A DNA stretch of 33,896 nucleotides from Candidatus Liptonbacteria bacterium. Lineage in GTDB: Bacteria > Patescibacteriota > Minisyncoccia > UBA6257 > 2-01-FULL-56-20. Positions 32,141-33,334 of the stretch are shown in pieces (positions within the stretch are counted from its first letter, which is position 1; every line of letters starts with the position of its first letter). Where the stretch lies: positions 1-33,896 of the forward strand of contig JACPLI010000023.1 in NCBI GenBank assembly GCA_016186635.1, read 5' to 3'. The position numbers and the translations under genes are program-made. The notes below the pieces were generated by a model. It made no database searches and was not told the origin of the DNA. It saw only the letters and a list, made by a program, of their open reading frames with translations.

Positions 32141-32186
32141 GATTCAGAGCGGAGGGGTGGCTGAGCGGCCGAAGGCACCGCACTCG
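32141..32186 (+). pseudogene. tRNA-Ser 5' half, truncated in the anticodon
   Basis: GATTCAGAGC (32141-32150) is followed by a 36-base tRNA-Ser 5' half, starting GGAGGGG and ending CCGCACTCG. That is acceptor, D arm (GGCTGAGCGGCCGAAGGC) and the anticodon stem to the second anticodon base. The same 46-base stretch recurs at 32490-32535 with 38 matches, there continuing into a full tRNA. No 3' half is seen here. Confidence 0.8.
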
Positions 32187-32535
32187 CCCGCCGAAGGCAG
32201 GGTCCGCCTCTGGCGGAAAATGCTCAATATGGCATCAACATATCTGCTATTCAGTCCGAATATGAAAAAGTTTTATGTGGGATCTTCTAGAAAAGAAGAT
32301 GCGAATGTGCGCCTTTCTCATCACAACAACGGGTCAGTCAGATCTACAAAAGCCGGGCGACCATGGATTGTTGTTGAAATTGAGAGATTTGAGAACTATA
32401 CTGATGCCAGAAAAAGAGAGCTATTCTTAAAATCCGGGATTGGTCGTAAGGAAATCTATAAAAAATTTGGCAACTTGAAGAAAGAGCTGGATTCAGAACG
32501 GAGGGTTGGCAGAGTGGTCTAACGCGCCGCACTCG
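32187..32535 (+). mobile_element. GIY-YIG cassette replacing the tRNA-Ser 5' half
   Basis: The stretch runs from the broken tRNA-Ser anticodon to the same position in the intact copy. It holds a hairpin (about 32189-32217, CCGCC...GGCGG with AGGC/GCCT inside), the GIY-YIG gene, and a new 5' half of tRNA-Ser. In this reading, insertion of 349 bases at one anticodon position would separate the old 5' half and supply a new one to the 3' half. Confidence 0.5.
32220..32522 (+). CDS. Single-domain GIY-YIG endonuclease
   Basis: About 100 residues starting at ATG 32220 or 32229 (MASTYLLFSPNMKKFYVGSS). YLL and FYVG are the GIY and YIG elements, followed by HHNNGSVRSTKAGRPWIVVE and the conserved glutamate in DARKRELFLKSGIGRKEIYK. 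Proteins of this type occur widely in reduced bacteria with unclear roles, and GIY-YIG domains often drive mobile-element homing. The last codons (SERRVGRVV, stop at 32522) lie inside the intact tRNA-Ser gene, so the gene and the tRNA overlap by 23 bases. Lower GC than its neighbours. Confidence 0.88.
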   Translation: MLNMASTYLLFSPNMKKFYVGSSRKEDANVRLSHHNNGSVRSTKAGRPWIVVEIERFENYTDARKRELFLKSGIGRKEIYKKFGNLKKELDSERRVGRVV

Positions 32536-32586
32536 AAATGCGGTTGGGGAGAAATCCCCTCAGAGGTTCGAATCCTCTACCCTCCG
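32500..32586 (+). tRNA. tRNA-Ser (anticodon CGA)
   Basis: The acceptor GGAGGGT pairs perfectly with ACCCTCC. The anticodon stem CCGCA/TGCGG holds loop CTCGAAA with anticodon CGA. A long variable arm (GGGGA..TCCCC) and T arm GAGGTTCGAATCCTC complete a type II tRNA. Discriminator G. The flanks GATTCAGAAC and GCTCTGAATC extend the acceptor pairing with one mismatch. Confidence 0.95.
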
Positions 32587-32805
32587 CTCTGAATCTTTTG
32601 CTTTGAAAATTTTTCCCAGCCACTTCCCCGTGAGCACCCGGATGCCGACGAGCTCGAGCCCCACGAGCGCGAGCCACGAGCCGGGCGTGAGCGGAGTCAC
32701 GAGCGCAAGCAGCCCGACCAGCACCAAAAGAATCCCGACGGCGAACTTCACCCGCGGGTATTTCCCGGAAATGTAGTCATGAAGTTTTTGGAGATGATTG
32801 CGCAT
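32560..32805 (-). CDS. Small membrane protein, C-terminus antisense to tRNA-Ser
   Basis: The 81-residue protein has one or two hydrophobic segments (FAVGILLVLVGLLALVTPLTPG and SWLALVGLELVGIRVL). It resembles short transmembrane proteins of unknown function with a central PLTPG turn. Its last residues (KDSERRVEDSNL) are encoded by the complement of the tRNA-Ser 3' end, so an original stop was probably lost. Confidence 0.6.
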   Translation of the reverse strand: MRNHLQKLHDYISGKYPRVKFAVGILLVLVGLLALVTPLTPGSWLALVGLELVGIRVLTGKWLGKIFKAKDSERRVEDSNL

Positions 32806-33156: not shown

Positions 33157-33334
33157 TATAGTCGCGGATTGTGGCGCCGCAAAGTATTGCGGCATCTCGC
33201 AGATCCTCGAAGGGGACTACAAAAATATAGTCGCGGAGTACCGCTCGTCTTGGGTTGTGGCGCCGCAAAGTATTGCGGCATCTCGCAGATCCTCGAAGGG
33301 GACTACAAAAATATAGTCGCGGAGTACCGCTCGT
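33157..33334. repeat. Tandem 86-nt repeat between tRNA-Ala and tRNA-Arg
   Basis: A unit beginning TTGTGGCGCCGCAAAGTATT is present at 33169 and 33255, identical over 80 bases, with a period of 86. A partial copy (TATAGTCGCGGA, 33157-33168) precedes them. Each unit holds hairpins GCCGCAA/TTGCGGC and GACTA/TAGTC (TAGTC on the other strand) and GCGGTACTCCGC. There is no open frame or spacer-like variability. Confidence 0.85.

Follow-up and report, generated by a model that had tools for sequence, protein, structure and literature searches.

The stretch of DNA analysed here (the window; 33,896 nucleotides of a Candidatus Liptonbacteria assembly) holds one instance of a widespread and apparently undescribed family of GIY-YIG/tRNA elements in Patescibacteria. 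On the sequence itself can be read a split tRNA-Ser(CGA) gene with a hairpin at the break, a GIY-YIG nuclease gene, and an intact tRNA of the same isotype; the arrangement recurs in other genomes, its nucleases track tRNA isotype without host signal, and an uninterrupted tRNA-Ser gene is present in a relative. The interval 32151-32587 is probably a member of a small mobile cassette family spread by homing of its nuclease, with cleavage, repair-driven spread, the order of events, and the direction of transfer being what we infer.

The broken tRNA-Ser ends in ..GCACTCG, cut after nucleotide 36, the second base of the CGA anticodon, as the initial annotation had described. This half is identical at 34 of 36 positions to the uninterrupted tRNA-Ser(CGA) of G001, a genome of the same genus. 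The proposed insertion in the tRNA-Ser anticodon is supported. The parts named in the proposed cassette layout are all in place (Table 1), among them the inverted flank copy after the intact tRNA and a nuclease gene that ends within that tRNA (stop codon TAA, 32520-32522), and a recount of the 46 bases of flank plus tRNA compared between the two copies again gives 38 matches and eight mismatches. Overlooked at that stage were the double hairpin and the AAATGC behind it. The first hairpin (CCCGCCGAAGGCAGGG) is imperfect; the second (TCCGCCTCTGGCGGA) has a 6-bp stem and a 3-nt loop and is present once in the window, where 0.2 occurrences are expected with one mismatch allowed. No displaced 3′ half of tRNA-Ser is left downstream in the window.

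Table 1. Features of the split tRNA-Ser(CGA) cassette, in window coordinates.
Feature	Positions	Strand	Remarks
GATTCAGAGC, 5′ flank of the broken tRNA-Ser	32141-32150	+	Complementary to 32586-32595
tRNA-Ser(CGA) 5′ part, nucleotides 1-36, native-like (class Y)	32151-32186	+	
Double hairpin at the break, CCCGCCGAAGGCAGGG + TCCGCCTCTGGCGGA	32187-32217	+	
AAATGC, resumed tRNA-Ser nucleotides 37-42	32218-32223	+	Same pattern in relatives
GIY-YIG nuclease gene; likelier start ATG 32229, giving 97 aa	32229-32522	+	Alternative ATG 32220
GATTCAGAAC, 5′ flank of the intact tRNA	32490-32499	+	Inside the nuclease frame, near its end
Intact tRNA-Ser(CGA) (class X)	32500-32587	+	ARAGORN; Rfam tRNA, 53 bits
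GCTCTGAATC, inverted copy of the 5′ flank	32586-32595	+	Lengthens the acceptor stem

That a tRNA is restored to intact form, as first claimed, agrees with the calls of two programs. This class X tRNA-Ser(CGA) is identical at 88/88 positions to that of G016, a genome of another genus, so both of its parts (36/36 and 52/52) match the other-genus gene, whereas the broken half is native-like. In G001, the class Y tRNA-Ser(CGA) lies 2.3 kb from the counterpart of the window's downstream neighbour gene and has another GIY-YIG gene behind it. The window's genome, 97.85% complete, yielded no second intact tRNA-Ser(CGA). These matches are most simply read as a replacement of the native tRNA-Ser by a whole foreign tRNA, with loss of the native 3′ half. 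The initial annotation had held that the cassette brings a new 5′ half; the replacement stands, but its restriction to the 5′ half does not, since both parts match the other genus and complete relatives enclose a whole tRNA, and the cassette probably carries the entire tRNA. Its likening of the locus to a mirror image of classic islands is also incomplete, as in some elements the GIY-YIG gene comes after the tRNA and the fragment left behind is a 3′ one. The foreign-tRNA reading leaves unexplained the 10-nt flank GATTCAGA(G/A)C, which precedes both the broken and the intact copy in the window and is the best argument for a duplication step.

For the nuclease gene, the start at 32229 is likelier because the alternative ATG lies within the tRNA-derived AAATGC and because the sister gene in G011 keeps that frame. 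The product matches PF01541 (Pfam, E=2.7e-10) and possesses the conserved Tyr, Tyr, Gly, Arg, His, and Glu residues of the GIY-YIG family (Y8, Y19, G21, R31, H35, and E67), which are invariant among 20 relatives. The nuclease (97-100 aa), whose structure is predicted with confidence (mean pLDDT 89.7), comprises the GIY-YIG domain and a short helix, without a DNA-binding domain of the I-TevI type. The closest solved structures by profile are UPF0213 (1zg2, E=3.6e-17), with which it shares a single-domain architecture, and SLX1 (E about 6e-9); SLX1 is also the closest fold to the predicted structure, with I-TevI matched weakly by both profile and fold. SLX1 works together with SLX4 on branched DNA, and this kinship suggests, by analogy, structure-specific cutting; to our knowledge, neither SLX1 nor UPF0213 is associated with tRNA genes. 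The GIY-YIG gene is the sole recognised gene of the window cassette. Its product has no match in phage records and, used as a single query against GTDB r220 contigs, found no relative. The sister element in G011 has the same tRNA, the same break, and a similar hairpin. Its nuclease gene is disrupted by a nonsense mutation, whereas its tRNA is preserved intact, as is expected of a homing gene decaying after fixation.

A protein search of 61 genomes returned relatives in 41, and the survey set comprises 97 GIY-YIG genes at 93 loci in 60 related genomes. A same-strand tRNA, of many isotypes, lies close to 53 of the 97 genes. The gene usually comes first, with about -22 to +18 nt between its stop codon and the tRNA start, and nucleotides 8-10 of the tRNA itself often form the stop codon. 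Ahead of the gene lies the 5′ part of a tRNA of the same isotype, broken off within the D, anticodon, or T arm: at nucleotide 36 in Ser(CGA), 33 in Cys, 35 or 10-12 in Glu, 54 in Gln, 56 in Pro, 20 in Phe and Val, and 12-16 in Ser(GCT). In a second arrangement (Gly, Asp, Gln, and Trp), the tRNA is followed by the gene and then by a 3′ fragment. Of 39 tRNAs lying behind a GIY-YIG gene, 24 are preceded within 450 nt by a second copy of their 5′ end, compared with 2 of 81 control tRNAs more than 500 nt from any such gene (p=5e-13), and identity before the break reaches 100% (54/54 at L010; 56/56 at L027). In an independent sample of the phylum, a same-strand tRNA adjoins 17 of 31 genes (12 downstream, 5 upstream), and an opposite-strand tRNA is near 0/31; a draw of genomes from the phylum contains the family in 106 of 145. 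The pairing of GIY-YIG genes with tRNA fragments, which the initial annotation had proposed to seek elsewhere, hence recurs in dozens of genomes, with controls, and neither of the two outcomes it regarded as contrary (tandem complete tRNAs in relatives, and no recurrence elsewhere) was what emerged. An assembly artefact was considered and ruled out, as numerous unrelated assemblies show the pattern, one of them being G025 (L018), a genome in a single contig. No description of such elements in Patescibacteria was found in the literature searched, outside which lie most subscription papers and all bioRxiv preprints.

In complete cases, the halves of one split tRNA lie on either side of a GIY-YIG gene and an intact, different tRNA with the same isotype. 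The outer halves pair at 7/7 positions of the acceptor stem for Ile (L003), Gln (L010 and L017), Pro (L027), Tyr (L104), and Ser(GGA) (L209), and at 6/7 for Arg (L007), with cross-isotype pairs averaging 3.1; the outer halves of two Cys cases fail this pairing test. Acceptor-stem complementarity was used in place of a test in which fused halves were submitted to ARAGORN, which returned tRNAs of the same isotype at several loci yet was not specific (it is also passed by mixed halves and by 57 of 600 shuffles). The acceptor stem of the inner tRNA differs from that of the outer halves in the Ile, Tyr, Arg, and Ser(GGA) cases, and thus a whole tRNA of the same isotype sits inside the split one. 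The window's genome has four such loci (the window, L002, L003, and L209).

Two of the complete arrangements, L209 and the Arg case of L007, are without a nuclease gene. At L209:1365-1617 (G000:C27, about 13.4-13.7 kb), in the same genome as the window, a split tRNA-Ser(GGA) surrounds an intact tRNA-Ser(GGA), and the pair lies inside the inverted repeats TCCCGTATAAAGC/GCTTTATACGGGA; this element is possibly a non-autonomous form. At L007:1217-1407, beside the sister Ser element, a split tRNA-Arg(CCT) holds a whole tRNA-Arg in its anticodon, the insert lying between inverted-repeat-like sequences. Extended inverted repeats that lengthen the acceptor stem are common around the tRNA genes of these genomes (19 bp at L007; also L010, L017, L045, L060, and L061), and they occur as well at loci where no GIY-YIG gene is seen.

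Split tRNAs are broken in the D, anticodon, or T loop, in most cases with a structurally conserved hairpin at the break. Ten hairpin pairs, from Cys, Ser, Glu, and Gln breaks, align as two 15-nt hairpins in which 96.7% of cells are paired, 10 of 12 pairs have changed on both sides, and covariation is 0.648 (0.207 in shuffles, 0/500); the rows are ungapped 30-mers picked by eye, and these values describe conserved pairing among them, not its frequency. A second hairpin type, the 20-mer perfect palindrome CCTGCCTGCCGGCAGGCAGG, lies between GGTA and GAGC of the D-loop. A DNA-pattern scan across GTDB r220 located 21 sites of this kind, 12 of them near a GIY-YIG gene, all in Patescibacteria records except for two in one Omnitrophota MAG and a few in unnamed bins. 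The 20-mer is present in 28 of the 41 genomes with GIY-YIG matches, compared with 1 of the 20 without (p=2e-6, kinship ignored). It is dispersed in G000, G003, G004, and others, with up to 22 copies in 0.7 Mb. Some tRNAs bear a hairpin in a further loop as well (L069, L076, and L083).

The phylogeny of the GIY-YIG domains is coupled to the isotype of the target tRNA and decoupled from the host. On a tree of 105 domains (81 columns, with weak deep forks), the amino acid of the adjacent tRNA changes 30 times (shuffled mean 46.3, minimum 41), association with a tRNA 15 times (33.9, minimum 27), and the break-site class, for which labels were set by hand, 13 times (22.9, minimum 18). Host genus requires 78 changes compared with 78.9 when shuffled and so gives no host signal. 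About 45 of the 105 members have no adjacent tRNA.

Under the homing reading that we hold to be probable, the cassette would consist of a stand-alone GIY-YIG gene, end hairpins, and a complete replacement tRNA of the isotype of the gene that it splits. The nuclease would cut in an arm loop of the resident tRNA gene (in the window, between nucleotides 36 and 37 of tRNA-Ser(CGA)), and the break would be repaired from a cassette-bearing copy, with the tRNA halves providing homology, as in homing. The resident tRNA would be left split and hairpin-tagged while the carried tRNA takes over, and the cassette would therefore not be cheaply lost; the window would since have lost its right-hand hairpin and the 3′ half that was displaced. 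Such cutting and repair would account for the isotype match, for breaks in conserved loops, and for the decoupling from host phylogeny, and it has precedents in phage SegB and in fungal mobile ORFs (mORFs). Several observations fit it less well, however. The nuclease has no DNA-binding tail and is structurally nearest to SLX1 and UPF0213; the target loop of the intact tRNA is uninterrupted, which leaves self-immunity unexplained; hairpins at many genomic places and in second loops of the same tRNA are not predicted by simple homing; a large share of tree members lack an adjacent tRNA; and the repeated flank suits tandem duplication better than a foreign insert.

The hairpins are better explained if a structure-specific nuclease akin to SLX1 and UPF0213 recognises stem-loops or cruciforms and places hairpin DNA, with or without cargo, in tRNA arm loops. 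The cargo would be the nuclease gene and a tRNA, homology of the carried tRNA would explain the isotype match, and the relationship would resemble that of REP sequences and their transposase. Consistent with this are the break hairpins, which conserve structure and not sequence, the position of breaks in arm loops, the dispersal of the 20-mer mostly in GIY-YIG-bearing genomes, the SLX1 and UPF0213 folds, the inverted repeats around tRNA-less GIY-YIG genes, and the nuclease-free version in the window's own genome (L209). We know of no GIY-YIG enzyme that transposes DNA in this manner, however; the correlation between hairpin and GIY-YIG gene ignores kinship; and the coupling of the tree to isotype and break site points to a degree of sequence specificity. 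We regard the explanation as rather unlikely. A more general proposal, possible although doubtful, is that hairpin-ended selfish elements moved by a structure-specific, SLX1/UPF0213-like GIY-YIG nuclease occur phylum-wide, insert in apical loops of structured RNA genes, tRNA genes chief among them, carry a complete replacement tRNA as a guarantee of survival, and drive horizontal replacement of essential tRNA genes.

It is quite improbable that tRNA-Ser was duplicated in tandem and its first copy decayed, with the GIY-YIG gene merely in between. The flank before both window copies and loci that retain two complete copies (L020) would suit such a history, but it does not accommodate sharp loop breaks with hairpins and up to 100% identity before the break, the rarity of such copies among tRNAs away from GIY-YIG genes, or the match of the window's two copies to different genera, and it is contradicted by the complete elements, in which the two outer parts fit one another and are unlike the inner tRNA. 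Loops of tRNA genes are classic integrase sites. They are also classic sites of group I introns (PMC3984707), and the GIY-YIG gene could in principle be a passenger in an ordinary integrative element or an intron remnant; this is very improbable, given that about 0.3-0.5 kb separates the halves, that GIY-YIG is the only recognisable gene, with no integrase, and that a complete, separate tRNA gene downstream makes splicing unnecessary. Rfam gave no intron match in the window, and no integrase or intron core was seen in the complete elements. That the hairpin-bearing split tRNAs are functional, being joined in trans or spliced at a domesticated tRNA-processing locus, is barely credible: the hairpins do keep their base pairing and co-transcription is plausible where the nuclease frame enters the tRNA, but the fragments are often decayed or one-sided and have an intact tRNA of the same isotype beside them.

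Among known systems, REP sequences and their transposases (RAYT) combine dispersed short palindromes with a small nuclease; the co-occurrence of the 20-mer with GIY-YIG genes, counted without regard to kinship, may be a counterpart. The RAYT enzyme is of the HUH (Y1) type, whereas the present elements have GIY-YIG as their only enzyme and tRNA loops as their sites. Integrative elements in tRNA genes also target a tRNA, keep it functional, and displace a fragment. Such elements depend on an integrase, and it is usually the 3′ part that they restore; here there is no integrase, and mostly 5′ fragments are left beside a whole new tRNA. As with free-standing homing endonucleases, the gene interrupts its presumed target (the split tRNA-Ser), of which G001 has an uninterrupted allele. 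SegB of phages T4 and T6 is a free-standing GIY-YIG homing endonuclease located between tRNA genes (PMC13096335, PMC2988022); it cuts within tRNA genes at the motif RAWTSGAAC (PMC13096335), which, as we read it, is complementary to the T-arm, where some of the present elements have their break. The window nuclease is similarly a stand-alone GIY-YIG enzyme among tRNA genes. SegB, however, lies between intact phage tRNA genes, and the available portions of these accounts describe no split tRNA, hairpin-tagged fragment, or isotype-matched replacement. The mORFs of fungal mitochondria (atp6 in Allomyces; atp6, atp9, cox2, and nad3 in Glomus; one case GIY-YIG) combine an endonuclease gene with a foreign copy of the displaced gene part, giving a functional hybrid (PMC3630166). 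A nuclease gene with a foreign replacement for a displaced part of a host gene is also what the present elements contain. In mORFs, the 3′ part of a mitochondrial protein gene is replaced and the passages cited mention no hairpins, whereas here tRNA genes are concerned, mostly with a whole tRNA (or a 5′ part) supplied, in bacteria.

If the homing reading is correct, one of the largest groups of bacteria would have had its essential tRNA genes repeatedly split and replaced by a selfish element that is hard to lose, as it holds the surviving tRNA copy. Two precedents, the SegB-type cutter of tRNA genes and the replacement parts of fungal mORFs, would be joined in a free-living bacterial setting. 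An origin would thereby be offered for the dispersed palindromes and foreign tRNA genes of these genomes, and dozens of natural enzyme/target pairs with predicted cut sites would make specificity directly testable.

Away from tRNAs, exact inverted repeats of at least 10 nt flank 25 of 43 GIY-YIG loci (1.3% at random). TRNA-less loci within conserved inverted repeats, which include ATCCCGTTAGAGATA, CCCCCCACCACTTTT, and CCCAACTTTTTGGA, are L030, L034, L067, L072, L077, L091, L099, L102, L110, L111, L113, L117, and others. Partial copies of tmRNA or RNase P RNA were sought upstream of the GIY-YIG genes that adjoin these RNAs and were not found. Two sister genes lie 78-90 nt before tmRNA (L112 and L023), and another pair of sister genes adjoins RNase P RNA (L110, and L100, which overlaps the predicted 5′ end by ~35 nt). 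One further GIY-YIG gene lies inside a 16S rRNA gene (L122). Elsewhere in the window, an 86-bp unit is repeated 1.9 times with 100% identity between tRNA-Arg and tRNA-Ala (33169-33334), and a 32-bp portion of it also occurs near a tRNA-Ala on contig C18.
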